A stretch of DNA of 64,000 bases from Notolepis coatsorum (taxonomy: Eukaryota; Chordata; Actinopteri; Aulopiformes; Paralepididae), in assembly GCA_963971535.1 (NCBI GenBank), contig OZ020593.1:40827766-40891765 (forward strand), read 5' to 3'. A program made the translations under genes and the position numbers. Within the stretch, counting starts at the first letter, position 1. Every line of letters starts with the position of its first letter. The notes beneath the pieces were generated by a model that did not search any database, had not been told where the DNA came from, and worked only from the letters and a program-made list of their open reading frames with translations. Of this stretch, positions 3,576-63,612 are shown piece after piece.

Positions 3576-4874
3576 GAGAGATGTGCTCCTTCATGTTCAT
3601 CATAGTGCTGAGTAGAGATGTGCTCCTTCATGTTCATCATAGTGCCGAGTAGAGATGTGCTCCTTCATGTTGTCCATAGTGCTGAGTAGAGATGTGCTCC
3701 TTCATGTTCATCATAGTGCTGAGTAGAGATGTGCTCCTTCATGTTCATCATAGTGCTGAGTAGAGATGTGCTCCTTCATGTTGTTCATAGTGCTGAGTAG
3801 AGATGTGCTCCTTCATGTTCATCATAGTGCTGAGTAGAGATGTGCTCCTTCATGTTCATCATAGTGCTGAGTAGAGATGTGCTCCTTCATGTTCATCATA
3901 GTGCTGAGTAGAGATGTGCTCCTTCATGTTGTTCATAGTGCTGAGTAGAGATGTGCTCCTTCATGTTCATCATAGTGCTGAGTAGAGATGTGCTCCTTCA
4001 TGTTGTTCATAGTGCTGAGTAGAGATGTGCTCCTTCATGTTCATCATAGTGCCGAGTAGAGATGTGCTCCTTCATGTTGTTCATAGTGCTGAGTAGAGAT
4101 GTGCTCCTTCATGTTCATCATAGTGCTGAGTAGAGATGTGCTCCTTCATGTTCATCATAGTGCTGAGTAGAGATGTGCTCCTTCATGTTCATCATAGTGC
4201 TGAGTAGAGATGTGCTCCTTCATGTTCATCATAGTGCTGAGTAGAGATGTGCTCCTTCATGTTCATCATAGTGCTGAGTAGAGATGTGCTCCTTCATGTT
4301 CATCATAGTGCTGAGTAGAGATGTGCTCCTTCATGTTCATAGTGCTGAGTTGAGATGTGCTCCTTCATGTTGTTCATAGTGCTGAGTAGAGATGTGCTCC
4401 TTCATGTTCATCATAGTGCTGAGTAGAGATGTGCTCCTTCATGTTGTTCATAGTGCTGAGTAGAGATGTGCTCCTTCATGTTCATCATAGTGCTGAGTAG
4501 AGATGTGCTCCTTCATGTTCATCATAGTGCTGAGTAGAGATGTGCTCCTTCATGTTCATCATAGTGCTGAGTAGAGATGTGCTCCTTCATGTTCATCATA
4601 GTGCTGAGTAGAGATGTGCTCCTTCATGTTCATCATAGTGCTGAGTAGAGATGTGCTCCTTCATGTTCATCATAGTGCTGAGTAGAGATGTGCTCCTTCA
4701 TGTTCATCATAGTGCTGAGTAGAGATGTGCTCCTTCATGTTCATCATAGTGCTGAGTAGAGATGTGCTCCTTCATGTTCATCATAGTGCTGAGTAGAGAT
4801 GTGCTCCTTCATGTTCATCATAGTGCTGACTGCTGAGTAGAGATGTGCTCCTTCATGTTGTTCATAGTGCTGAG
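3576..4874. repeat. 37-bp minisatellite, first block (about 35 copies)
   Basis: Units read GTGCTGAGTAGAGATGTGCT, CCTTCATGTT, then either CATCATA or GTTCATA. The two 7-base variants alternate in runs, so higher-order structure is visible. It continues at 5879 after a transposon insertion. Confidence 0.95.
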
Positions 4875-5878
4875 TAGGGGTGGACGGTATAAACGGTATA
4901 CGGTATAAACGGTATTAATTTGCTCTACGGTATGGATTTTGACTATACCGTGTAACCGGTAGAGCAGCTCTAAAATAGCAATGACGTCATGTAACCACAG
5001 CGCGACTATTTCAATCGCATTTGCCCCTAAAAATAGATAGAATTAGTCATAGATAATAGATATGTGCAAACTGGAAAAAGTTATTTAGGAGGCTTCGCGC
5101 AGTGGGCGTGTCAACACGCAATTGTCATTTCATAATAAACACATATCACCGCGGCGCACAGCAAGTTTCAATTTCAGTTCCTGGCATTTTTAACCAGTGG
5201 AGAAAGGTAAGAGATTTCCCTATCGTTTTTCTTATATGAATTATTCTACGTTAATAAAACATACCTGGTGATCAACTACAGTTTGCTGTAAACATTATGA
5301 TATGTGTGTAGTGTTATGATAACGACGGCTGCAGCGGGAGGAAGGCTGCAGCAGTGGATTTGCGAATAGCATGCAGCTGCAGAGCCGCAGAGCCAGGGGC
5401 GCTTTCAGGTCTGGTCACAGGCCCGCTCAACAGCACCCCCCCACCCAACGGCTGAATTGCCAATGGCACTGTGCAATACTCCAATTCAGCCATTGGCAAT
5501 TCAGCCGTTGGGTGGGGGGGCGCTGTTGAGCGGGCCTGTGACCAGACCTGAAAGCGCCCCTGGCTCTGCGGCTTTGCAGCTACATATGCTTCTAGCAAAA
5601 TCCAGCATCCAGCCCCGCTGTTTGCAATGGGAGCAGCACGGAGTCTCGACTCAGGACTTATTTTATTTGGAATATAATGACTTTATACACAAAAGTAGCC
5701 TAGTTTTAAGTTAAAATATTATAAATCTACATGCCTTGAGGATGTCATTCTTTATATAGCCTGCCTATCAGGCAAAAAAAATTATTCTAACAGAAACACT
5801 GATACCGTTATATACCGTTACCGTCTATGCTTCAAATTATACCGTGATATACATTTTAGACCATACCGTCCACCCCTA
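4875..5878. mobile_element. hAT-type element inserted in the 37-bp minisatellite
   Basis: Ends TAGGGGTGGACGGTATAAAC and ATACCGTCCACCCCTA are inverted. The 8-bp duplication GTGCTGAG flanks it on both sides (4867-4874 and 5879-5886) and is exactly the first 8 bases of the minisatellite unit. Inside is a strong palindrome around 5385-5590 built on the segment GGCTGAATTGCCAATGG. The core matches, in reverse orientation, part of the element at 59479-60539. Confidence 0.9.
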
Positions 5879-6367
5879 GTGCTGAGTAGAGATGTGCTCC
5901 TTCATGTTGTTCATAGTGCTGAGTAGAGATGTGCTCCTTCATGTTGTTCATAGTGCTGACTCTGAGTAGAGATGTGCTCCTTCATGTTGTTCATAGTGCT
6001 GAGTAGAGATGTGCTCCTTCATGTTGTTCATAGTGCTGACTCTGAGTAGAGATGTGCTCCTTCATGTTGTTCATAGTGCTGAGTAGAGATGTGCTCCTTC
6101 ATGTTGTTCATAGTGCTGAGTAGAGATGTGCTCCTTCATGTTGTTCATAGTGCTGAGTAGAGATGTGCTCCTTCATGTTCATCATAGTGCTGAGTAGAGA
6201 TGTGCTCCTTCATGTTGTTCATAGTGCTGAGTAGAGATGTGCTCCTTCATGTTGTTCATAGTGCTGAGTAGAGATGTGCTCCTTCATGTTGTTCATAGTG
6301 CTGAGTATAGATGTGCTCCTTCATGTTCATCATAGTGCTGAGTAGAGATGTGCTCCTTCATGTTGTT
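5879..6367. repeat. 37-bp minisatellite, second block (about 13 copies)
   Basis: Same unit as 3576-4874, mostly the GTTCATA variant. A few units carry an extra CTGACT. An A-rich run follows at 6384-6402. Confidence 0.95.
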
Positions 6368-8416: not shown

Positions 8417-9121
8417 CCAGCCACCCCCCACCTCCCTCATCCACCATCTCCTCTTGCATCACATTTACTCATTTATTTATTTATTAATTTATTTGAGAAA
8501 GTCGCAACGGTGGAAGGCAATTGGAGGGTCAGGTTTGGTTTTAAAGCCATTCCATTCTATAAATGTATGAATGTCTGTACATGCCGCCACTGCCTTGTGG
8601 CTTTGCATGATTGCTAGCGCTGTAAGCCCCTGTTTAATGTGTTACAATGCTCGAATAATGGCTTTTACAACCGTAAACGCTTGTCGTTGCGGATAGTTCT
8701 CCTGTCATTGCATTTGGTAGCAGCCTGAAGCGGTACATATCCACGGATTCTACAGTCACACCAGAGGATGGTGAATGACACTCCCAGGCAACCCCTCCCC
8801 CCCCAACAACAGCAAGGCGTTTCCAGGTGTAGTGGAGTTGTGGTGTAGCGCTGAGTGGGTTTTTGTTTGTTCCTTCCCTTCTGATCAACACACGGTTGTT
8901 GTCACGCAGCTCAGTGCTGGAATGTTGTCTCCATCTACCAGTGCTCTTTGTTTGTCCTTGACGAGTGGTGCGGCGGGTTTGTCCGAGGACACTCCACGAC
9001 GCAGCACTGTTCATTTGGTATCACATGGATGTAAAAAAAATAATAATAAAAATACTCAATTGATTGGGTCTAAACATGTGTGTCCTGGTGTTCATTAATG
9101 TGTGTGTGTCTTCTGTTCCAG

Positions 9122-9508
9122 ATGGAAGATGGCCAAACGCTGTTCGACTACAACGTGGGCCTCAACGACATCGTCCAGCTGCTGATTCGCTCCCAGACTG
9201 ACCCTCCCGACAGCCCCGCCTCCAAGGACAACAGGGGCGTGATTTGTTCACCTTCCGTTCCTGCCAGCAAGAACTGCGCGGCGCCGGTCGCATCCGCGAC
9301 CAGTTCAAACGATATGACCGCCGTCAACAGCAAGAGCAACAGTAGCATCATCACCAGCACCAGTAACGCAGCTAAGCCAGATCCCAACAACAGCACTAAC
9401 TCCACCAGGTCCAACAACGGCTCCAAGTCCCCCAGCCCGGCACGGGACATCCAGCCATCCACGTCCAGCCGCGCCGCGCTGGTGGACCCGGGCATCGGGG
9501 TCTACAAG
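9122..9508 (+). CDS. uhrf2: UHRF2 exon (probable exon 2): end of ubiquitin-like domain and Ser/Asn linker
   Basis: The exon follows an acceptor ending TTCTGTTCCAG and ends before GTGAGA; both borders are phase 0 (129 codons). The first 22 or so residues, MEDGQTLFDYNVGLNDIVQL, are the last strands of the ubiquitin-like domain. In UHRF proteins this exon follows a first exon ending in RLFYRGKQ, so the leading Met is internal, not a start. The next 80 or so residues are low-complexity Ser/Asn/Thr/Pro, visibly longer than the mammalian linker. The exon closes with PSTSSRAALVDPGIGVYK, the conserved lead into the tandem Tudor domain and characteristic of UHRF2. Codons are GC-rich compared with the AT-rich introns around it. 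Extension of the reading frame upstream of 9122 is intronic. Confidence 0.93.

Positions 9509-11200: not shown

Positions 11201-11275
<75 letters not shown>
11201..11275. repeat. (AC)n microsatellite
   Basis: About 37 AC units; a second tract follows at 11361. Confidence 0.98.

Positions 11276-11360: not shown

Positions 11361-11426
<66 letters not shown>
11361..11426. repeat. (AC)n microsatellite
   Basis: About 33 AC units. Confidence 0.98.
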
Positions 11427-12453: not shown

Positions 12454-12788
12454 GTCAACGAGCTCGTAGACTGCAGGGACGTGACCATCGGCGCCTGGTT
12501 CGAGGCCTGCATTGACGCAGTGACGCGCCCCCCCAAAGAACAGACACCCCCGACCAAGGGCAAGGTGGGCCGGCCCAGCAAAAGGACTAATGGCAAGCTG
12601 GAGGCCGAGCCGGGCCAGACGACCACGGACAGTAACGGGAATAACATTGTGTTGAACTTGGACAGTGGTGGAGCCTCCACCTCCCAAACAGACTCTACAA
12701 CAGACTCAGCCAAAGGCTCCACGCCTCCAGCCACAGTGGAGGCCAAGGAGAGGGAGGAGGACGTCATTTACCACATTAAATATGATGA
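12454..12788 (+). CDS. uhrf2: UHRF2 exon (probable exon 3): first Tudor subdomain
   Basis: Acceptor CTCCCTCAG precedes GTC; the donor is GTAAGT at 12789, leaving two bases (GA) of a split Asp codon. The protein begins VNELVDCRDVTIGAWFEA, the first Tudor barrel; the Phe in AWFEA is one expected aromatic-cage residue for H3K9me3. A long loop of about 75 residues follows, rich in Pro, Lys, Ser and Thr, with the basic motif KVGRPSKRTNGK, which has a GRP core like an AT-hook. Human UHRF2 also has KRTNG here, but UHRF1 has a much shorter loop. The exon ends EEDVIYHIKYD, which supplies two further cage tyrosines. AT-hook function is only inferred from the motif. Confidence 0.93.
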
Positions 12789-36080: not shown

Positions 36081-36247
36081 TTTAAACTTTATTTTTAAAG
36101 GTTTTGCTTTGATTTATGATGACACTGAATAGAAATAATCCAAATATTTTTCTGAGTGAGTCATTTCTCCCGGGTAAAATGACAGAATTATGATTAATAT
36201 GATGAAGATCACATCTAAACTCTGTCTCTCTCTCTCTCTCTCTCTAG

Positions 36248-36466
36248 CTACCCGGAGAATGGCGTGGTGGAGATGCGGCCGGTGGACGTGCGGCCCCGGG
36301 CCAGGACCTTGCTGCGGTGGGACCAGCTGAGCGTGGGGCTGCCCGTCATGGTCAACTACAACATGGAGACGCCCGAGGAGAGGGGATTCTGGTTCCACGC
36401 CGAGGTCCAGGCGCTCAACCAGGCGTCCCGCACCAACAAGGAGCTCCGCGTCAAGATCCTGCTGGG
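36248..36466 (+). CDS. uhrf2: UHRF2 exon (probable exon 4): second Tudor subdomain
   Basis: The exon starts with the last base of the split Asp codon, then YPENGVVEMRPVDVRPRART. It continues LLRWDQLSVGLPVMVNYNME, TPEERGFWFHAEVQALNQ and ends RVKILLG before donor GTAAAG. This is the end of Tudor 1 and most of Tudor 2; the order and the PENGVV, RARTLL and RGFW motifs are typical of UHRF tandem Tudor domains. The acceptor tract is a pure (CT)n run of about 25 bases (36223-36245), so the polypyrimidine tract is itself a microsatellite and is likely to vary in length. The preceding intron is 23.5 kb, the longest seen here. Confidence 0.94.
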
Positions 36467-39430: not shown

Positions 39431-39540
39431 GGGTCTCGGGGATGGGATAGGGGATTGTAAGGTACACTTTCTGGATGAGGTCTATCAGGCGGAGAAACCA
39501 GGAGCCCGCCCCCTGTCTGCTGCTGACGGACAGTTTAAAC
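39431..39540 (+). CDS. uhrf2: UHRF2 exon (probable exon 5): end of tandem Tudor and linker to PHD
   Basis: The exon completes a split Gly codon and reads GLGDGIGDCKVHFLDEVYQA then EKPGARPLSAADGQFKR, closing with one base of the Arg codon. It corresponds to mammalian UHRF2 residues containing LNDCKI, VDEIF, ERPGAHPLSFADGKF. This segment ends the second Tudor barrel and begins the basic linker before the PHD finger; in UHRF1 that linker packs against the Tudor groove and sets the combined histone readout. The donor GTACGT is followed within about 12 bases by a (CA)n tract of roughly 44 bases. The frame would meet a stop if read through the donor. Confidence 0.92.
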
Positions 39541-39551
39541 GTACGTCTCAG

Positions 39552-39595
<44 letters not shown>
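39552..39595. repeat. (CA)n microsatellite just after a splice donor
   Basis: About 22 CA units starting some 12 bases after the donor of the exon ending 39540. Confidence 0.97.
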
Positions 39596-39598
<3 letters not shown>

Positions 39599-39949
39599 CC
39601 TCTCACAATACACACGAATAAACACAATGATAAGTGAAACGTTCATTGCCTTAGTATGTAGTTAAGCTGCTAAATAAATTGATTAACAAACTTTTAGTTG
39701 TTGAAGGATAGAAACCTCAGATCTCTAAACAAGCAACTTCCTTGGGGGAATTAGGAAAAACATATTCAGATTGATGCCCATCAATTTTCAAACAAGGAAT
39801 GTGTTTTTAATAGGGCCAACATTCAATGCAAATAAGAAGATGGAGGGGCTAATTTGGAGTTACAAGGTTTTTTGCCACCAGCAGTTGTTTTGTTATTGTT
39901 TTATTCAGGCATTCTCCAACTCAGAGATGAGCTGCTTCTGTTTCCGCCT

Positions 39950-40085
39950 CCTGAACTCAGTCTCTGTTGAAGTGTAATGTTCTCCTGAGCTCAGTCTCTG
40001 TTGAAGTGTAATGTTCTCCTGAGCTCAGTCTCTGTTGAAGTGTAATGTTCTCCTGAGCTCAGCCTTTGTTGAAGTGTAATGTTCT
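39950..40085. repeat. 34-bp minisatellite (4 copies)
   Basis: Units GTTCTCCTGAGCTCAGTCTC then TGTTGAAGTGTAAT. Confidence 0.93.
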
Positions 40086-42916
40086 GTGGGGTATTGAATT
40101 TGAAAATATACAGTATATATTTATAAATATATTTTCTAATGTACAAACACTATCAATGTGAACAACGTGTACTCAAAATGTAATTGTATTGGACAGTTTT
40201 CTGGTGACTCATAATAAGGTACTTTTTCCAGGGAGAGAAAACAACAGATTCCTTTTAGACGAAAATAAAAGGGATTTTATTTTGGCCACATAGTGATAAA
40301 TTAAAACTAGGTGCAGAAGGAAAATTGAAGAAATCAATTCATGGGATCTTAAAATGTTAGTCCTTGTCTTGAGAGGACTGCTGATCAGTTTCGGAAATCA
40401 TAACATGTCCTCAAGCCCATGTTTTTAACTTTGGGGCTGGGGCTACCCCTTTTTCTGTATTTGGCTTAGTGATTATGCCTTTAAACTCAGTCAGATGTTT
40501 CTGGGCTGCCTAGGTCAGAAAATATGTGATTCCACAAGACATTCAGACTTGCCTCTCTGTCATACGTCAATCAGGGATCATAGACAAAGCACAGTCCGTG
40601 ACTCTTTGTGCATGTGAAGAACACACGTACAAAATGGCAGCTTACTGGGAACTTTCTCTGTTTCCACCAAACTATCTACAGGCCTGTACACTGCGATGAT
40701 CTCGTCGCAAATTGCCCCTTAATTTGGCCGTTGCGAGTTGGAAATATTATTTGGGAGCAACGTTGCGAGTTGTGATTTCAACCCTTCATTCGCATTTCAC
40801 TCCTAAATTAATCCATACAAATTGGATACATTTAAAAAAAAACATTAGCCTACAACCAAGGCTGTACAGTGCACAGTGTATGTCGTGGTGCTATGAAAGA
40901 ATCTTGTCGGCAATGAATGAACTTACTGCGATCACCGATAGCCTGAGTGAAAAAAAAAGATTTGCGTGTGGAATGAATCTGGGTCACGCTATATACTTGG
41001 TACTTGTAGTCTATCGTGCGATTAAAGACCATGTCCCTATCTGCGTAGTCTATACATCCAACACCAAATCCCATAATTCCTAGCAAAACGAAACTGAATG
41101 TGGCCTCTTCCTTTCAATATGGACTATTGCATCGCCAAAGAAGCACCTAATTTCAATACATTTAAGACGCAAATTTTGCTCTGCAAGAACAACGGAGTGG
41201 ATATCAGTCCATCTTATGACAACCACGTCCGATGTGGAGAGATGATAAGATGATGATGATTGACGTGATGATGTTATGATTGATTGACGGGGAGTCGGAC
41301 ACGGACACTTCTAACGTTCAGGTTCAGCCATCGATTTGGTGAGTAGTAGTAGCCCACTATTAGGACGTGAAATACTGTCTACTTAAATTTATAAAATATC
41401 AACCTATCTATCCATCTAATAATGAGACAATATGCAAATAAGATAATACTAATAATTGTCACGGTGTCCCCGTATATGAAATGAAAGTGGCTTGCAACTT
41501 TACTGCTGGTAAAATCACTGTTTATTTCTCGTTTAGCATAGTATTACATTCCACTTCTATAAACAATCAAAGTCCTACCGTAAGAGCCTCATCCGGGTCA
41601 ATTAAACCTTTTTGATTAGTCTTTCCTTCGAGCTAAGTTGGACTGAACATTTCACTGTCAAAAGCGCAAATGTAAATAAGGTTGCGTCGCAACACGGTTT
41701 TCAAAATAAAGGTCACATATACAAATACCTCTCAATTCTTACTAAAAAAAGTCCCGGATATACATAAACATTAATTGGCATAGATCTCTATAAACGGCCC
41801 AACACATTGATCACTTTAGGCACACACTGAAACCAGTAACATCACAAATATGAAGCAGGTAATTACCCATACAACTAATAAACCTTTCATGGGGTTATTT
41901 ACAATAATAATTCATTTGATTTCTAAAGCACTTTTCATTGTGAAACAAATGTATGCAGAGTTTCTTGTCCTCCTGATTAATGCAATGGTGTGTGTGTTGT
42001 GGTGATCTCATTCAAGGAGCACTACACAAGCGCGCACACACACACACACAGTTTGTTGTTTTTGTTCTATTAGTGATTTACACACTTTCTCGGTTGGTTC
42101 ATTATAAAAGATACAAACCTGAAAACAAACACACTTAAATGTTAAATAAAAGGACCACAGTAATGAGGCAGGAACATATTTTTTTAATAATGGTAAAATT
42201 GTTATTTAAAAATTTGCCCCTAAAAAATATTTTTTGCCCATAAATTTCTCATTTAGGGGCAAGTGTGCCCCTAGTGAAAAAGCTTAGCGTACAGCCCTGA
42301 TCTAAAAGTAAAGCATGCAATTGCTGTATCTTTACCTCATATTTGCCCTAGTTTGACAGTTTTATCGGAATTTTGTGAGCCAGGCATGTGAGGCATGTAG
42401 TTCCGGAGCACGGCACATGGTTTTTGAGCGGGAGCAGGTCATTTGGATTTAATGCTACAGAAACAGAACATGACTGAAATGGAGGGGTATAGAGGCTAGA
42501 ATGCATAACCCAAGTGATATTTTTAGCAAAAAACTTCAAAGACATGTTTTGGGGACCTCAGAGGCCTATATTAACTTGTTGAAAAGGAGTAAAATATGTG
42601 ACCTTTAAGCTAAGCTGAAAGTAATTACCTTTACTTATCAGGTGAGCAGTTCCCGCTCACTTCTCAATGTACTAAGCAAACTCACAATCTGTTGAGCGCC
42701 GTCAGCAGAATGGTGTCTCTCACTTCTCAATGTCCTAAACGAACTCACAATCTGTTGAGCGCCGTCAGCAGAATGGTGTCTCGCTCTCCAGACATCAGTG
42801 GAATATTTTCAAATACCTTCTAGACATTATGGACATCTTTTTGTTGTTTTCTACATCGGTGTTGCCACAGTTCTCTCCATAACCTCAGTTGTCAAAGTAA
42901 AGACTTAATTATACAC

Positions 42917-43010
42917 ACTCACTCACTCACTCACTCACTCACTCACTCACTCACTCACTCACTCACTCACTCACTCACTCACTCACTCACTCACTCACTC
43001 ACTCACTCAC
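42917..43010. repeat. (ACTC)n microsatellite
   Basis: About 23 tetranucleotide units. Confidence 0.97.
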
Positions 43011-43150
43011 ATGTGCACACCACACATCTGCACAAGTGCGCATACAACACAGTAGCATACTTGCTGCAATGATATGAACACCTAAAAATATGTGATTTAC
43101 AACAGCCTATCTATCAGCACTACATATACGTATATATTACAGCAGTACTG

Positions 43151-45226
43151 TTGGGGGGGGAATAAAACATATACTGTTTATATACCGTCATACCGTGTTT
43201 CTAAAACATGCAGAGTGTTTTTTCCAACTGTTGAACAAATTGATAAATACAGATGTTAGCAGCTAAATGAGCATCTCGCATTAGAGATAACTATTAGATG
43301 ATTATATAATATACAAATGGGGAGGCGGACTAGTCCATGGAGCTCTGTTGTGTTGAAATTATTTTGTTTAAATCTATCGATTTGTTTTCACCACTGCATA
43401 GAATATTCTCTCTTGCATTTGACGATTATATTTGTTAACCCCTGCATAGAATATTCTCTCTTGCATCTTATCATTAGATTTGTTCACCTCTGCACATTTC
43501 CTTTAATGACTGCAGTTGCAACGAGTTGACCGATTAATACTTTGACTCTGAGACTATAATAAGCCTGTTCTGAAGCTAATATTGAACATTTTATGAACTG
43601 CTGAAAAGAAGATTTGTTCTCCATGCTGTTCAGTCCAGGAATGTTTCCCTACCCAACATTAGAACCAATAATGAGGTCTACCTTACTGAAGATGCCCATG
43701 TTATGAAATTCACTGTATATTCAGCTGGTTGGCTAATTGAGAAAAATGCTTGTTTTCTTCCAACAATTGTACTGACGCACTGAATGAGAACTCATTGAAA
43801 GGGGAAATAGCAAGCTCTGTGTCACACGTCTAGAGAAATAAAACAGTTTTCCCATTTGAATTGCCTGGATTACTTGTTAGCCACACCATTTCCCTCTAAT
43901 CTATAGCCTACTCAAATACAACCATGGCATGTGTATTTCTTTTACCACAGGAGTGCAGAGCACTGCTTGTTAGGGATGCGTGAGCTGTTAGACCCACGGT
44001 ACACTGGTTTATTCAAATGTATGAATTGTCTAAATTGAAAATCCGTTTACAAGGCACTTCCTTATCCACTGGGAGAGGGCTAGTCGCAATGCTTATGAAG
44101 AGAGAGAGAGAGCGAGAGAGTGCATGAGAGATGACTATTAGATGACTATATAATACACAAATGGAGAGGCAGACTAGTCCATGGATCTCTGATGTGTTGA
44201 AATTAGTTTAAATCAATAAAAGAAAATCACCCCTGCATAGAATATTCTCTCTTGCATTTTATCAATAGATTTTTTCACTCCTGCATAGAATATTCTCTCT
44301 TGTATTCTATCAATAGATTTGTTCACCCCTGCATAGAGTATTCTCTCTTGTATTTTATCAATAGATTTTTTCACTCCTGCATAGAATATTCTCTCTTGTA
44401 TTCTATCAATAGATTTGTTCACCCCTGCATAGAATATTCTCTCTTGTATTCTATCAATAGATTTGTTCACCCCTGCATAGAGTATACTCTCTTGTATTTT
44501 ATAAATATATTTGTTCACCCCTGCATAGAATATTCTCTCAAGTTGTATTCCATCAATAGATTTGTTCACCCCTGCATAGAGTATACTCTCTTGTATTTTA
44601 TAAATATATTTGTTCACCCCTGCATAGAATATTCTCTCTTGTATTCCATCAATAGATTTGTTCACCCCTGCATAGAGTATACTCTCTTGTATTTTATAAA
44701 TATATTTGTTCACCCCTGCATAGAATATTCTCTCTTGTATTCCATCAATAGATTTGTTCACCCCTGCATAGAGTATACTCTCTTGTATTTTATAAATATA
44801 TTTGTTCACCCCTGCATAGAATATTCTCTCTTGTATTCCATCAATAGATTTGTTCACCCCTGCATAGAGTATACTCTCTTGTATTTTATAAATATATTTG
44901 TTCACCCCTGCATATAATATTCTCTCTTGTATTCCATCAATAGATTTGTTCACCCCTGCAAATAGGCATCTCATGTTTGTTTTTGTGCAGGTCGGTCTCT
45001 GCCGGCAAGGCATTTCTTGTGTGTTCGGTGCTCCAACCTGACGTGCATGGCCACACAGCTTAGAAGGCACATTGCATGCACATACAAACTAATAAATAAA
45101 AATAATAATTTAGCTGCTAACATCTGTATTTATCTATTTGTTGAACAGTTGGAAAAAAGGTTCTCTGCATGTTTTAGAAACACGGTATGTCAGTATATAA
45201 ACGGTATATGTTTTATTCCCCCCCAA
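43151..45226. mobile_element. Unclassified 2.1-kb element with 117-bp inverted ends
   Basis: Left end 43151-43267 begins TTGGGGGGGGAATAAAACAT and closes GATGTTAGCAGCTAAA; the right end 45110-45226 is its near-identical reverse complement. Between them, a block containing GACTAGTCCATGGA occurs twice (about 43285-43500 and 44130-44960), each followed by copies of a 48-bp unit: about two and a half in the first and about fifteen in the second. No transposase was recognised and the target duplication is not clear. Confidence 0.75.
44229..44959. repeat. 48-bp minisatellite (about 15 copies), open on both strands
   Basis: Units CCCCTGCATAGAATATTCTC, TCTTGTATTCTATCAATAGA, TTTGTTCA. Since 48 is a multiple of three and the unit lacks stops in suitable frames, a 16-residue repeat frame runs on the - strand (GVNKSIDGIQERIFYA) and another on the + strand. 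I do not call a gene. Confidence 0.93.
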
Positions 45227-45772
45227 CATAAGGTCCTTCAGTTGGTTTGTTTTAGGGGACCGAAGACAAATGGTTAGGCCCTCCTCTAATTGCATTGCAA
45301 TGACATGAGAAACACACATTTGGAGTATTGTTGGTTATAGTGCATCTCTCTGAAAACAATGCAGAGCAGCCTGTGTCACTATATTTATTTATTTATAAAA
45401 AAAAATAGGGACAATACATATTAAAGAAAAATGTCATATAAATATGCCATATTAGAGCCAGAGGCTAATTTCCATCTGTATCCCCTTTGTAGGTTGATGG
45501 TAACAGAGCAGATAATTAAAATTACATGTACAAGTTGTCTAAATTACATACACTTCACCATATAAAATAGACGATATATTTTTGTATATCACTGCTATTA
45601 TGTGTTTCAATATTTTTCTAACTTCTTACTGTCATCAATCCGTGTGTGTGTTTGTCCTGGTGTGTTTTTATATGAATCGATATGTGTTATTGTTTGGTCG
45701 CCAAATGTGTGTTTGGTGTGTGTGTGTTTTGTGTATTGTGTGTGCATTTGTTTGTTTGTTTGTTTGTGTGTG

Positions 45773-45806
<34 letters not shown>
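45773..45806. repeat. (GT)n microsatellite just before a splice acceptor
   Basis: About 16 GT units ending 8 bases before the AG of the PHD exon acceptor; the wider 45710-45806 is also GT/TTTG-rich. Confidence 0.95.
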
Positions 45807-45808
<2 letters not shown>

Positions 45809-45814
45809 TTCTAG

Positions 45815-46001
45815 GGAAGAGCGGGGTGGAGTGTAAGCACTGCAAGGCGGACCTGGAGGCAGAGTGTCGTTTCTGCTCGTGCTGCGTGTGTGGAGGCAAG
45901 CAGGACGCACACATGCAGCTGCTGTGTGATGAGTGTAACATGGCCTTCCATATCTACTGTCTCAACCCTCCCCTGGCAACCATCCCTGACGACGAGGACT
46001 G
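45815..46001 (+). CDS. uhrf2: UHRF2 exon (probable exon 6): PHD finger, main part
   Basis: The exon reads RKSGVECKHCKADLEAECRF, then CSCCVCGGKQDAHMQLLCDE, then CNMAFHIYCLNPPLATIPDD and EDW. It holds the pre-PHD zinc knuckle and most of the Cys4-His-Cys3 PHD zinc ligands. The acidic LLCDEC segment is the part that contacts the H3 N-terminus in the family. Asn in CDECN instead of Asp is the UHRF2 state. The acceptor is TTTCTAG directly after a (GT)n run, with hardly any polypyrimidine tract. The donor GTGAGA is followed after a few bases by (CA)n. The split Trp codon continues in the next exon. Confidence 0.95.
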
Positions 46002-47320
46002 GTGAGACACACACACACGCACGCACACACACACACACACGCACGCACGCACGCACGCAATGGACAAATTCACACAGAAACAGCCTTTTTTAAACAAAGA
46101 ATTGTTACTATTAGAGATACTATAACTGTTTGCTTTTATAGTAAATGTATATGTTCTTAAACATTCAAACTGTAAAAAAAAAACACATTTGTTTTGATCT
46201 GACGCGCAATGCCGTCGGCCGAATAGTGGGTGATACTGCTGTGCGCGGTCACAATTATTATTATTATTATTAAATATAAAAAATAATTTGGTTATACTTA
46301 CCGGTAGTTCCACCTAGGCTTGCTGCGGTAGTCAGTGATACCAGTGTCATTCTGTGTTCAAGCATCCACTGAGTAAATTAATTGCCTACCGCCCCCACCA
46401 GCGTAAGCTTTTTAAGTTTAACTTCTAGAGTAGATTTAACTTCATGTTAGAGAAATTAGAATAGAGAAATAGAGAAAGAAGACTCTAGAGAAGAGCTGAC
46501 ATGTTACACAACAATGGCAGAGGATCAATATTTTGGATTTAAACACCGCAGCAGCTCGACTGTAGAGGAGCTCAGATGATCAGTCCGGGAAAAGTATGTA
46601 GTGCGTTAGTCTTTTCTTTCATTATTTCTTATTTCTTATTTTATTTCTTATTTATAAAATAAAAAATAAAAAAAAATGAATCCGATATTATTATTATTTT
46701 TACCGATACCCGATCCAGCTATTTTACTGATATCGGCGGCTGATACCGATACCAATATCGGATCGGTGCATCCCTAGTTGTAGCCAATGAGTATGGCTTT
46801 CCAATGATACCCCATGTGGGGATCTGCGAATCAGGGATCTAGGTGAAAAGTCACAAGCAAAAACAGGAAGAGAAAAAAACGCAGAATGAATTGAAGTGAA
46901 TGAGGAAATGGTTTACTGGAGAGCTTTTTTTTTCACAGTTTACCATAAACGCTCCTAATCACTCATTTCTGAACGGATCTTTATGAAATTCGGACATGTA
47001 CTACATAAGTCTTCAGGCTATGGACCAGCTCATAAATATTTTTTGGGAAATACTATATTTGGATATTGCAACTACTACATGTTTTTCTACAACTCAAGTT
47101 CAGACCTATGTTACTCTATTTCATTAGCACTAAAAGTGATCTTTCTTTATTGTATCAGAAACTTCAGAAACTTCAGAATGTTATCTTTCAAAAGAGACCA
47201 GGCTTATGCATTTTCTATAAGTATAAAGATATGCTTTTCAAAAAAACTATGCAGTCCTCAAGTTCAAGTTAAAAGAATTACCACTTTTCTGGGCACCAGT
47301 TAAGAGGTTAATATTCAACG

Positions 47321-48686
47321 TTAACTCATTGACTGCCACGCTGTTTTCCCATCTTTACTCCCTGGTGCCAGCGTTATTGACCATTTTCAAGATGTTTGCG
47401 GACCCATCGTATATATTCTATATTATAGCTATGGAGACAATACTATGGCTCATTTGACAGGCACTATTTATAGTCCAACATTGACAAACCAGTTCATTTC
47501 TACATACTTTCGTTTGTGTGCTATTCCATGCTAAACATCGCCCTGTTTCAAAATAATCTAGTCTCGTTTTATAGATAGAGATATGACGTGTTATATGCAT
47601 ATGCGCAAATCGTTCGGGTTGCTCGCCTGAAACCTATATTATTTCCAAATCAAAGGTATATACCATATTAAAGATTTGTTTTTTGGCGTGTTATCGCTTT
47701 ATTGCTACTGGGCAGTCCAGTAGAGAGAGACAGAGGAGGAATGGGAGACAGAGTGGGGGGAAGACATTCGGCAAATAACGACGGGTTCGGGAGTCGAACC
47801 CGTGTCGCGGCTGAGCGCGCTATGTGGTTCGCCACTGGGGCGCCCCGGTATATACCATATTAGATGTTTCTTCACAAAATCATCAAGGGGGGGGGGGGGG
47901 GGGGTCATTTTACGAAGCTGCGATCGTTACCAAAAGCATGTTTTAGGTTCGGTAAAATACGACGCTGTGATCAATAGAAAAGCATGTTTTAGGTTCGGTA
48001 AAATAGATCTAAAATAGACCTTACCTTTGTAAGAAGGTACCCCAAAATGAATAATCCCAGTAGTTCCATCGCGATCATCATTACCGGTGTGCATTGGGCC
48101 TGGCTAGAATACAGAAAACAATAGGTTTCAGGTGAGCAAATCCGCGACAGATGGCTGTGTACTGCTTTAGTGGTCTGCAAGGGCCCTGAAATGAAGCCTG
48201 TGCCCTGCCCGAGCCCGTGAACTTCAGGCCCTGCCCGAAAATAAGCCCGACTGTAAATAATATTTTAAGCCCTAGCCCGCGTGAAAACCAGAAAAAAAAT
48301 TATTATTATTATTATTAAAATATATATATTTTTTGCATTTGTTTTAAATATTCGAAACACGGTTTTATATGAACTTAATAAATAAACAAAAACGAAAATG
48401 TCCAATAGGTCTAACTAAATAACACATATGCTGAAAACTAACAACCATTCTATAGCCTGATTCGCTCTTATTAGAATATTAAATTATTTTTTTGTTTTAA
48501 ATATTCTAAACACTTTATATATTAACTTAATAAATAAACAAACGAAAATGTCCAATAGGTCTGCCTAAATAACGCATATCGGCTGAAAACTAAGAAGCAT
48601 TTACATGCTTCGCTCTTATTAGAATGCTGTCCCAGTGCTCACACTGCAGCCTCGTAAAACGTATTGAAGGCTATAGAATCTTCTTT

Positions 48687-48731
<45 letters not shown>

Positions 48732-49435
48732 CACAATAGCCTACTCAGTCACTATACAAACAAACAGAAAACAGAAATCAGATTTCGAGCAGAGCAACAT
48801 AATGAAAAGCACAACAAAACAGGGCAGCGCAGCGACCCAGCAAATAATAAACATCACTCACCACTTTGCTGTTGACGTCAGCAACGCGTTGAACAACGTT
48901 AACAAAACTTCGCCAACCGGCTAGTCGGCTACATACATCCAAGAACAAATTAAAACGTTCGCCAACTGGCTATATTCCAACACAACCAATCGAGTTGTCC
49001 CCTGAGTTCTCCCTGCGTGCTGCGGTAATTACATCCAAATGTTTCTCTGATGACAGCTTGCGCTAAAGAGAAAACGAAACTTAAGGAAAACGAAGGTTAT
49101 CCTATAACCCTAGTTATATGAGAAAAAAAAAAAACTGCGGTGCCCGGGCAAGGTTGCAGTGCACTATACTGCTTCACTTTGAGGGGGAGGGGATTCCTGC
49201 AGCCAGAGGCACTGAGAGACACCTTAGAGACCCAGTTCAAAAGGTATGCGATACTGCCACCTGTCGGGATTTGATCGTCATTGCAATTTTAACGTAGGCA
49301 GCGGTGCCAGGGAGACACAGGCAGGTCCACGCGAGTGTTTAGAATGGGAAAATCGAAAAAAAGAAAAAAGGGTTTGGCGCTCAACGATTGGATTCTAAAC
49401 ACGAGAAATCTCGGGTTTGTCGCAGAATGAGTTAA
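47321..49435 (+). mobile_element. TTAA-family (piggyBac-like) element with internal insertions
   Basis: Left TTAACTCATTGACTGCCACG, right TTGTCGCAGAATGAGTTAA. Family landmarks CTATATTATAGCTATGG and the G-run at 47887-47904 are present. It is 2.1 kb long because other repeats lie inside: a SINE at 47671-47846, an uncertain repeat beginning GGGCCCTGAAATGAAGCC at 48180, and (CA)n at 48692-48729. Confidence 0.78.
47671..47846 (-). mobile_element. tRNA-derived SINE, type 3, nested in a TTAA element
   Basis: On the - strand the head is GGGCGCCCCAGTGGCGAACC with B-box-like GGGTTCGACTCCCG. A perfect 16-base duplication GGTATATACCATATTA flanks it (47655-47670, 47847-47862). Confidence 0.93.
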
Positions 49436-49645
49436 AGATCAAAGTAAGCCAGTGTAAAGTCAAGTAAATTATTGAGCATAAATTTGTAAAATGTGCAACC
49501 CTAGTTTCACCTATAGTGTTGTATGAGACGTATTCGTCGTATGGCTGGATGTACCGAACCGTGACGTCCGTACCGTGAAGTTGCGGGACGAATACACGTA
49601 CCGTTACACCCCTAGTCAGCAGTGAGTGTGTGTGTTCTCCACCAG

Positions 49646-49769
49646 GTACTGTCCCACCTGTAAGAACGACACCAGCGAGGTGGTGAAGGCAGGAGAGAAA
49701 CTCAAAGCCAGCAAGAAGAAGTCCAAGATGCCCTCAGCTACCACCGAGAGTCAGAGAGACTGGGGCAAG
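49646..49769 (+). CDS. uhrf2: UHRF2 exon (probable exon 7): end of PHD finger and linker to SRA
   Basis: The exon completes the Trp codon and reads [41 protein letters not shown]. The CPTC pair gives the last zinc ligands of the PHD finger; WYCP is a typical PHD end. The Lys-rich stretch KASKKKSKM and the ESQRDWGK that follows are the conserved linker into the SRA domain in both UHRF paralogues. The acceptor is a short (GT)n followed by TCTCCACCAG; the donor GTGAGA runs into a long (CA)n tract at 49781-49843. Both borders agree in phase with their neighbours. Confidence 0.95.
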
Positions 49770-49776
49770 GTGAGAG

Positions 49777-49780
<4 letters not shown>

Positions 49781-49840
<60 letters not shown>

Positions 49841-49843
49841 ACA
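49781..49843. repeat. (CA)n microsatellite just after a splice donor
   Basis: About 29 CA units starting 11 bases after the donor of the exon ending 49769, followed by further CA/TA steps. Confidence 0.97.
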
Positions 49844-49977
49844 CTTATACACACATAAGTGCGCTAGGATTTTAAACTGCCGGCCAGAATGTCCGGAATG
49901 ATTACAGTTTGTCGGACAAATGATAAAAAAAAAACTGCCATATCTATTTTCAATGCATGAGCGACAGGCAGGTGCAT

Positions 49978-60772: not shown

Positions 60773-61575
60773 CGCTTTAGAAGGCAGGCATGCTATCGTC
60801 CTCTCACACAGCAACACTGCTCTATCACTCTACTGTACGGTGGTGTGTTGTGGACAATGCCATTTAGCATGACTCAGCCATTTTCCTGGAACCCACTAGA
60901 CTAGAGGAAAATAACTCATTTTTTTTTTTTTTACCAGAATGCTCGTTCTCTGCATGCTAATTGGAAACAGCCTGGCCTGTGTGTAAGGGCACATTTTAAC
61001 GTGCGTTATGAGTCACAAGGCAATTATCTGAGAAGGTTCTCACTACGGCAATACATTCAGATTGCTGCTTGAGGAGTTGGCTTAGTCTTTGGTTGATAAT
61101 CCTTGTATCTTGGTAATGTAGTGTTGGGGGGAGGGGGGGTTCAAAAAGCAGTCAGATAATGTGTCTTTAGTCTTATTCATAATGAGAAATCGTTGGTTGC
61201 TATGGCCACAAGACATCCATGAAAATCAATATGTTTACTTGAATTTCACAAATGAAAAAAACATCAAGAATTACATTTCTTTTGTATTTTTCACGGCTAT
61301 CTGTCGTGTTTCTTAAAATACGGTATGTCAGCGCCCCCCAGGCCTTTTATCTATTTATCCTCATCGTGAACTTGAGGCAAAACGGATTTTAGATCAGTGT
61401 TCCTACTCTGAGATGAGATGTAGATAGGTGATCTATATGATGTTGAGATGTGATGTGTTGTTTTATGTATGTATGAGAATAATTCCATCCACATGACATT
61501 CATATGTTATTCCTATGCCAACATACAATACAGCTCTTTCTTTTGATTCTTGATCTTCTGTACGTGTTGTTGCAG

Positions 61576-61683
61576 GGCATGGCCTGTGTGGGGCGCACTA
61601 AGGAATGCACCATCGTCCCTTCAAACCATTACGGGCCCATCCCTGGTGTTCCCGTCGGAACGACCTGGAAATTCCGAGTTCAG
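61576..61683 (+). CDS. uhrf2: UHRF2 exon (probable exon 8): start of SRA domain
   Basis: Thirty-six whole codons reading [36 protein letters not shown]. This is the first part of the SET- and RING-associated (SRA) domain, which embraces DNA and flips a modified cytosine out of the helix. The wording is nearly the same in both UHRF paralogues; Glu after TK (TKECT) agrees with mammalian UHRF2 (TRECT) rather than zebrafish Uhrf1 (TKQCT). Acceptor TTGTTGCAG and donor GTGAGC are canonical. The intron before it is 11.8 kb and very repeat-rich. Confidence 0.95.
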
Positions 61684-61978: not shown

Positions 61979-62083
61979 GTGAGTGAGGCGGGGGTGCACA
62001 GACCCCACGTGGGCGGTATCCACGGGCGCAGTAATGACGGCTCCTATTCGCTGGTGCTGGCCGGGGGCTTTGAGGACGAAGTG
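61979..62083 (+). CDS. uhrf2: UHRF2 exon (probable exon 9): SRA core
   Basis: Thirty-five whole codons reading [20 protein letters not shown] and [15 protein letters not shown]. This is the SRA core strand-loop region with the HGRSNDG motif that shapes the modified-cytosine pocket. GGIHG and GGFEDEV match the UHRF2 form (UHRF1 has AGIHG and GGYEDDV). The acceptor is CCCTCAAG and the exon begins GTGAGT, which itself looks like a donor; the codon alignment with the family shows that GTG is the coding Val-Ser start and not an intron edge. The true donor is GTGGGT at 62084. Confidence 0.95.
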
Positions 62084-62299: not shown

Positions 62300-62479
62300 A
62301 GGATATATGATATACAGGGTAGCTTTGGAGAGAGAGAGCGCATTAAAGCCAGCAGTTTGAATGTTTACTTTATCTGTGTTGCTGTTTGAATTGTTCAAAC
62401 CGATATCAAAGCAGCTCGGATGACATTTCAGACGGTTTCTGACGTGTGTGTGTGTTGTGTGTGTGCGCACCCCCTGCAG

Positions 62480-62586
62480 GACAGGGGAGATGAATTCACC
62501 TACACGGGGAGCGGAGGTCGTGACCTCTCTGGAAATAAGAGGATTGGAGAGCACTCCTTCGATCAGACCTTGACCCACATGAACAG
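62480..62586 (+). CDS. uhrf2: UHRF2 exon (probable exon 10): SRA NKR-finger segment
   Basis: The exon reads [20 protein letters not shown] then [15 protein letters not shown] and two bases of an Arg codon. The GNKR tip is the SRA 'NKR finger', known in UHRF1 to insert into the DNA groove and read the opposite strand. DRGDEF and NKRIG are UHRF2-like. Acceptor CCCCTGCAG lies close behind a (GT)n tract; the donor is GTAACG. The preceding intron is only 396 bp and contains a 70-base (CT)n run. Confidence 0.95.
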
Positions 62587-63449: not shown

Positions 63450-63612
63450 GGCACTGGCCTCGAACTGTGACGCACCGCTGAACGACAAGGACGGCGCAGA
63501 GTCCAGGAACTGGCGCGCGGGGAAGCCAGTGAGGGTGGTGCGCAGCTCCAAGGGCCGACGCATCAGCAAGTACGCTCCCGAGGAGGGGAACCGCTACGAC
63601 GGGATTTACAAG
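63450..63612 (+). CDS. uhrf2: UHRF2 exon (probable exon 11): SRA C-terminal half
   Basis: The exon completes the split Arg codon, then reads [54 protein letters not shown]. This is the C-terminal SRA half; the family continues with VVKYWPE in the next exon, which is outside the window. [26 protein letters not shown] match mammalian UHRF2 almost word for word. The acceptor is TCTTCCGCAG; the donor AAG|GTAACC merges directly into a tandem array of a very similar sequence. Confidence 0.95.

Follow-up and report, generated by a model that had tools for sequence, protein, structure and literature searches.

Introns bridged by complementary AC and GT repeats have been described in fishes, and the abstract by Lin and colleagues is said to give their frequency as 10% of genes (not of introns). 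According to a passage of PMC6093180, about 10% of zebrafish introns carry a (GT)n repeat before the acceptor that pairs with an (AC)n repeat after the donor, obviating U2AF. These are the introns of Lin et al. 2016 (Genome Research, doi 10.1101/gr.181008.114), which are also described in parts of PMC9198270 and PMC7404189. A second relevant class comes from human introns, where passages of PMC1431707 report AG-free zones of at least 100 nt in 838 of 67,334 introns and of at least 150 nt in 165. Between one-fifth and one-half of the 838 are ascribed by the authors to distant branch points, and human exons with zones of at least 100 nt are alternatively spliced more often (same passages of PMC1431707).

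Here we describe an intron of the UHRF2 gene in a window of 64,000 nucleotides (the whole stretch of DNA that was analysed). Like the AC/GT-bridged introns, intron 5 has AC after its donor and GT before its acceptor, and it occurs in a fish. The original prediction had pointed to paired AC/GT introns in fishes, and the available passages of the reports bear this out in substance (PMC6093180, PMC9198270, PMC7404189). Intron 5 is a clear candidate example of the published kind of intron, with statistics firmer than those first offered for it, and two qualifications go beyond the original prediction: the tracts have competing partners, and the acceptor has a candidate distant branch point. The searched portions of open papers, for which UHRF2 was not among the search terms, held no description of UHRF2 intron 5, nor of such tracts competing for partners across an exon.

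Gene model and placement of intron 5

Ten exons on the forward strand join into a single open frame of 615 residues that corresponds to fish UHRF2 (Table 1). The product carries the Pfam TTD, PHD and SRA domains and matches UHRF2 of Polymixia, Centroberyx and Myripristis at 83-85%. Counting the exon of the ubiquitin-like start as the first, the window covers exons 2 to 11; exon 1 was not found, as a tblastn search of the window with residues 1-50 of these three proteins (E 1e-3) gave no match. The first match, to UHRF1 PHD structures, had suggested the name UHRF1, which was dropped because most named relatives are UHRF2. Among the best 120 of 1574 relatives, those with names are mostly UHRF2, one (P0095) is UHRF1, and the others are labelled UHRF, hypothetical or nothing at all; every organism name noticed among these 120 is that of a fish. 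In a protein tree the product groups with Polymixia, Lampris, Centroberyx and Myripristis, in a grouping that is not firm. Known RNA families gave no match at gathering score within the window, and no relative of the PHD exon was confirmed in a single scan of viral contigs or in a single scan of prokaryote contigs.

The end of exon 4 was fixed from the reading frame. For intron 5, the exon 5/donor sequence is ...GGACAGTTTAAAC/gtacgt and the acceptor/exon 6 sequence is atttctag/GGAAGAGC..., which gives the junction DGQFK-R-KSGVECKHC, collinear with the three relatives (P0001-P0003). The splice sites of intron 5 are thus fixed by the frame and by this collinearity, and the intron had been correctly placed before the PHD exon, as had the one that follows it (46002-49645).

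Table 1. Positions of UHRF2 exons, repeat tracts and splicing features in the window
Feature	Position	Strand	Basis
11-nt GT run before intron 1 acceptor	9099-9109	+	
UHRF2 exon 2	9122-9508	+	
UHRF2 exon 3	12454-12788	+	
UHRF2 exon 4	36248-36466	+	
UHRF2 exon 5, end of tandem tudor region	39431-39540	+	tblastn 81-86% vs three relatives, in frame
Intron 5, 6274 nt	39541-45814	+	exon boundaries and phase
AC5, (CA)21, 42 nt, after 13 bases of intron 5	39554-39595	+	
244-nt zone whose sole AG is the splice-site AG at its end	45571-45814	+	
Candidate distant branch points TTCTAAC (A at -194, 45621) and TTCTTAC (A at -187)	45616-45629	+	consensus match only
GT-rich stretch upstream of GT5, alternative AC5 partner (pairs 45642 to 45726)	45642-45773	+	
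GT5, 33-nt tract with (GT)16, 8 nt before exon 6	45774-45806	+	
UHRF2 exon 6, PHD finger, 187 nt	45815-46001	+	
AC6, imperfect CA/CG tract directly after exon 6 donor, complementary to GT5 across exon 6	46007-46059	+	
(GT)5, 10 nt, ending 10 nt before intron 6 acceptor	49626-49635	+	
UHRF2 exon 7, 124 nt	49646-49769	+	
CA tract directly after intron 7 donor	49780-49855	+	
UHRF2 exon 8	61576-61683	+	
UHRF2 exon 9	61979-62083	+	
GT tract before intron 9 acceptor, runs up to 12 nt	62444-62465	+	
UHRF2 exon 10	62480-62586	+	
UHRF2 exon 11	63450-63612	+	

Dinucleotide tracts at the splice sites

The AC tract reported after the donor of intron 5 is present, with a size of (CA)21 after 13 bases instead of the predicted (CA)22 after 12, and the (GT)16 tract ending 8 nt before the acceptor lies exactly where it had been placed. 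We refer to these tracts as AC5 and GT5, and to the imperfect CA/CG tract at the next donor as AC6. At 3 of the 10 donors (introns 5, 6 and 7) there is an AC run of at least 16 nt no more than 60 nt away; with a cut-off of at least 10 nt the count near donors is likewise 3/10, against a window background of 1.5%. At the acceptors, GT runs of at least 10 nt occur within 60 nt in 4/10 cases (introns 1, 5, 6 and 9, with lengths of 11, 33, 10 and 12), against a background of 1.45%. The reverse arrangement is absent at this cut-off of at least 10 nt (GT at 0/10 donors, AC at 0/10 acceptors); each of the seven tracts is either an AC run beside a donor or a GT run beside an acceptor.

When all twenty splice sites were moved jointly along the window, no position gathered more than 3 tracts, compared with the 7 observed (0/63,800 shifts), at a main cut-off of runs of at least 10 nt no more than 60 nt from a splice site that was chosen after the tracts had been seen. 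Stricter lengths gave 5 observed against a maximum of 3 (12 nt) and 4 against a maximum of 2 (16 nt), again in 0/63,800 shifts each. Together with the counts at donors and acceptors, the shift test links the tracts both to splice sites and to the sense strand, a stronger statement than the original prediction made. The orientation bias by itself could stem from avoidance of extra GTs at donors and of U-poor tracts at acceptors.

Tracts at both ends of one intron are a separate matter. Nine introns lie entirely in the window; they include three AC donors, three GT acceptors and two introns with both, and chance gives two or more such introns with P 0.23. The joint presence of AC and GT in introns 5 and 6 is thus not above chance in this gene, and we rejected the view that it proves pairing to be under selection.

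This last figure bears on an alternative in which each tract serves as a single protein site and no helix is involved. The protein hnRNP L binds CA repeats near donors, and CELF-type proteins bind UG repeats. In UHRF2, CA tracts stand directly after three donors, a likeness in sequence, and hnRNP L on CA at donors with TDP-43 or CELF-type proteins on UG at acceptors would then tune the inclusion of exon 6. That introns 7 and 9 carry one tract only agrees with this reading, as does the chance level of co-occurrence; in the available text of PMC3823766, hnRNP L and CA repeats (11 mentions) both appear, and PMC6093180 cites a paper whose title names UG recognition by TDP-43. Unlike a lone hnRNP L site, however, a complementary GT tract exists here, and the strong complementarity of the intron 5 ends and the existence of a published bridging class favour pairing. 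We consider binding without a helix unlikely.

Other splice sites of the gene differ in their repeats. The intron 7 donor region (49770-49855) has a 76-nt CA tract that includes a 56-nt pure CA run; the acceptor of the same intron (61516-61575) is without a GT tract, and its longest pyrimidine run is 9. Intron 9 has no AC tract at its donor. The intron 3 acceptor (36220-36245) has a (CT)n tract with a 21-nt unbroken pyrimidine run, the longest of the ten acceptors.

Predicted pairing of the intron 5 ends

Folding the two ends of intron 5 together, as the original prediction proposed, gave a duplex of -95.7 kcal/mol (first 80 against last 80 nt). None of 5000 randomly paired 80-mers, drawn from non-exonic parts of the window, reached this value (mean -23.6, minimum -70.9 kcal/mol), and among the nine introns compared only intron 5 beats every random pair, which makes the predicted helix unusually stable. 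The weaker version foreseen in the next intron exists, with imperfect CA from +6, (GT)5 at the acceptor and a duplex of -46.6 kcal/mol. It is weak because 45/5000 random pairs equal or beat it; with nine introns compared, intron 6 was dropped as an independent second case. The ends of intron 2, which are without long tracts, give -40.0 kcal/mol.

The minimum-energy fold of 39431-45860 (exon 5, intron 5 and the start of exon 6) contains an AC5:GT5 helix that spans 6.2 kb. All of GT5 is paired with 39553-39585 in 33 pairs, which are followed by a one-base bulge and nine more pairs; between the donor and the main helix lie 13 nt, and between the helix and the acceptor 8 nt. The isolated duplex has three additional pairs that run to 45810-45812, adjoining the acceptor AG, and these might hinder splicing rather than help it.

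Two further repeats lie within the intron. A segment of about 2.1 kb (43149-45228) has 120-nt inverted ends, with arms 95-96% complementary, contains a 48/96-bp minisatellite (44227-44960) and looks like a transposon remnant; the stem of its inverted ends, if formed, would shorten the loop of intron 5 by about 2 kb. At 42916-43010 there is a perfect (CACT)n of 95 nt.

Acceptor and branch point of intron 5

The acceptor of intron 5 is the poorest of the ten in local pyrimidines. Its pyrimidine share from -20 to -5 is 0.56 (0.62 to 1.0 at the others), and no pyrimidine run in the final 40 nt of the intron exceeds 5, the lowest such maximum of the ten acceptors. The claim that the acceptor has almost no polypyrimidine tract is thus true near the AG, but a pyrimidine-rich stretch lies near -190. 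The donor is unremarkable: it has 6/9 consensus matches, within the range of 5 to 8 for the ten donors, and the idea of a weak donor was dropped.

These features bear on a distant-branch-point acceptor, at which U2AF2 and U2 snRNP would assemble near -190 and the first AG downstream would be used, with the repeats tolerated and pairing unneeded. The absence of any A between -9 and -68 makes a branch point at the normal place unlikely. The AG-free zone that ends at this acceptor is 244 nt long, compared with 19 to 117 at the other nine acceptors, and only one of the 3746 AG-free gaps in the window exceeds it; it is partly a by-product of the repeat, because GT repeats contain neither AG nor A. 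Under a simple score against a consensus, which measures a sequence match, the candidate TTCTAAC at -194 shares first place among the ten acceptors with a match in intron 4. The candidate branch points are followed by a pyrimidine-rich stretch (15/21 nt), so U2AF2 may bind far upstream, and the earlier view that there is little for U2AF2 to bind is qualified by this possible site near -190.

The likeness to the distant-branch-point exons in the passages of PMC1431707 lies in the 244-nt AG-free zone, the good match at -194 and the pyrimidine-rich stretch after it, and the human introns with long AG-free zones are a precedent. In contrast to those exons, the zone here is to a considerable extent GT repeat and the branch point comes from a sequence match; the class is also a human one, and the cases analysed experimentally in those passages (PMC1431707) are regulated by PTB. 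That microsatellites are simply tolerated would fit a window rich in tandem repeats, with 226 overlapping entries at a score of at least 30. The by-product nature of the zone counts against a purely distant-branch-point acceptor, however, which also leaves the AC tracts at three donors unexplained. We regard it as possible but rather unlikely.

Our preferred reading, which we hold with moderate confidence, is that intron 5 is a candidate AC/GT-bridged fish intron whose helix aids splicing. A strong predicted helix combined with a weak local polypyrimidine tract is as in the published class; intron 5 differs from that class in its candidate distant branch point, which is accompanied by a pyrimidine-rich stretch. 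The tracts, their orientation bias, the weak local tract, the energies and the AG-free zone are read directly from the DNA, and we infer that the helix forms in the cell, aids splicing and reduces the need for U2AF2. In the proposed mechanism, (AC)21 after the donor would pair with (GU)16 before the acceptor in nascent RNA once the acceptor has been transcribed, in a helix of about 33 perfect base pairs plus extensions. The helix would tether both splice sites across 6.2 kb, and this tethering may compensate for the weak local polypyrimidine tract, with branching most likely at the distant adenosine at about -194 or -187. If it works as read, intron 5 is a clear further case, located in a conserved chromatin gene and with 33 perfect pairs spanning 6.2 kb, among the fish introns in which RNA structure reportedly does part of the work of U2AF2.

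Competing partners and exon 6

The predicted pairing of the intron 5 ends over 6.2 kb is borne out in its complementarity and in the fold, but it is not exclusive, as equal or better partners exist. With 80-nt ends, GT5 and AC6 form a duplex of -104.7 kcal/mol, compared with -95.7 for GT5 and AC5; when the pure tracts alone are used, the two are about equal (-63.8 for AC6 and -64.5 for AC5). GT5 also gives -100 to -104 kcal/mol with the intron 7 donor tract and -99 and -101 kcal/mol with two tracts of intron 2, so that GT5 has four further partners in the window at -99 to -105 kcal/mol. AC5 in turn reaches -95.8 kcal/mol with a GT tract in intron 3. The pure CA tracts of intron 2 lie at 11202-11275 (74 nt) and 11362-11426 (65 nt) and are strong possible partners of GT tracts in the pre-mRNA.

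The fold itself changes once a further 240 nt, which reach into intron 6, are added to the sequence (39431-46100). GT5 switches to AC6 (46009-46041) with exon 6 as the loop, and AC5 moves to the GT-rich stretch near the acceptor (Table 1), while donor 5, acceptor 5 and donor 6 remain close to one another. The isolated GT5:AC6 duplex starts at 46004 and could therefore cover donor positions +3 to +6.

These strong competing partners, notably the one across the next exon, set intron 5 against the simple picture of an AC/GT-bridged fish intron. Because equal or better alternatives exist, dinucleotide repeats cannot select their partner by sequence. The choice would have to come from transcription order, earlier splicing or proteins, on which any gene with several such tracts, which carry no address, must rely for the right pairing. 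Here a single GT tract faces AC at 6.2 kb and at 0.2 kb, which makes the question of partner choice directly testable.

Inverted complementary repeats, of which Alu-type repeats are the example, flank exons that are skipped or that form circular RNA. Alu-type complementary repeats flanking circular or skipped exons are named in a passage of PMC9198270. GT5 and AC6 resemble them in their position on either side of the 187-nt exon 6, at distances of 8 and 5 nt, but they are simple repeats and not transposon copies. By pairing 200 nt apart, they could loop out the PHD exon, leading to skipping with a frameshift or, by back-splicing, to circular RNA. The lower energy of the 80-nt duplex with AC6, the exon 6 hairpin in the extended minimum-energy fold and the possible masking of donor 6 are in line with this outcome, as is the more frequent alternative splicing of human exons with long AG-free zones in the passages of PMC1431707. 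Since exon 6 is 187 nt long, its skipping shifts the frame, and a stop then appears in exon 7, at nt 39 of its 124 nt, which leaves about 83 nt to the following junction. By the usual rule this distance is far enough for decay, so decay of the skipped transcript would be expected. Against looping across the exon, the pure-tract energies are about equal, AC5 can pair earlier in time, and the PHD family is present in 120/120 of the best 120 of 1574 relatives, so that inclusion is the rule among those proteins; decayed transcripts would stay invisible in the relatives' protein set. Overall we think such looping improbable.

An equally long shot would combine the two helices. GT5 could be the shared arm of two mutually exclusive structures, AC5:GT5 and GT5:AC6, with the timing of transcription and splicing setting inclusion of exon 6 against its skipping or circularisation. 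If this were true, UHRF2 would contain an RNA switch built from microsatellites, whose setting drifts with repeat length, and the gene would be turned down through a frameshifted, decayed mRNA.

Upstream of exon 2, the window also holds two arrays of a related 37-bp minisatellite, at 3577-4877 (about 35 copies) and 5877-6367 (about 13 copies).
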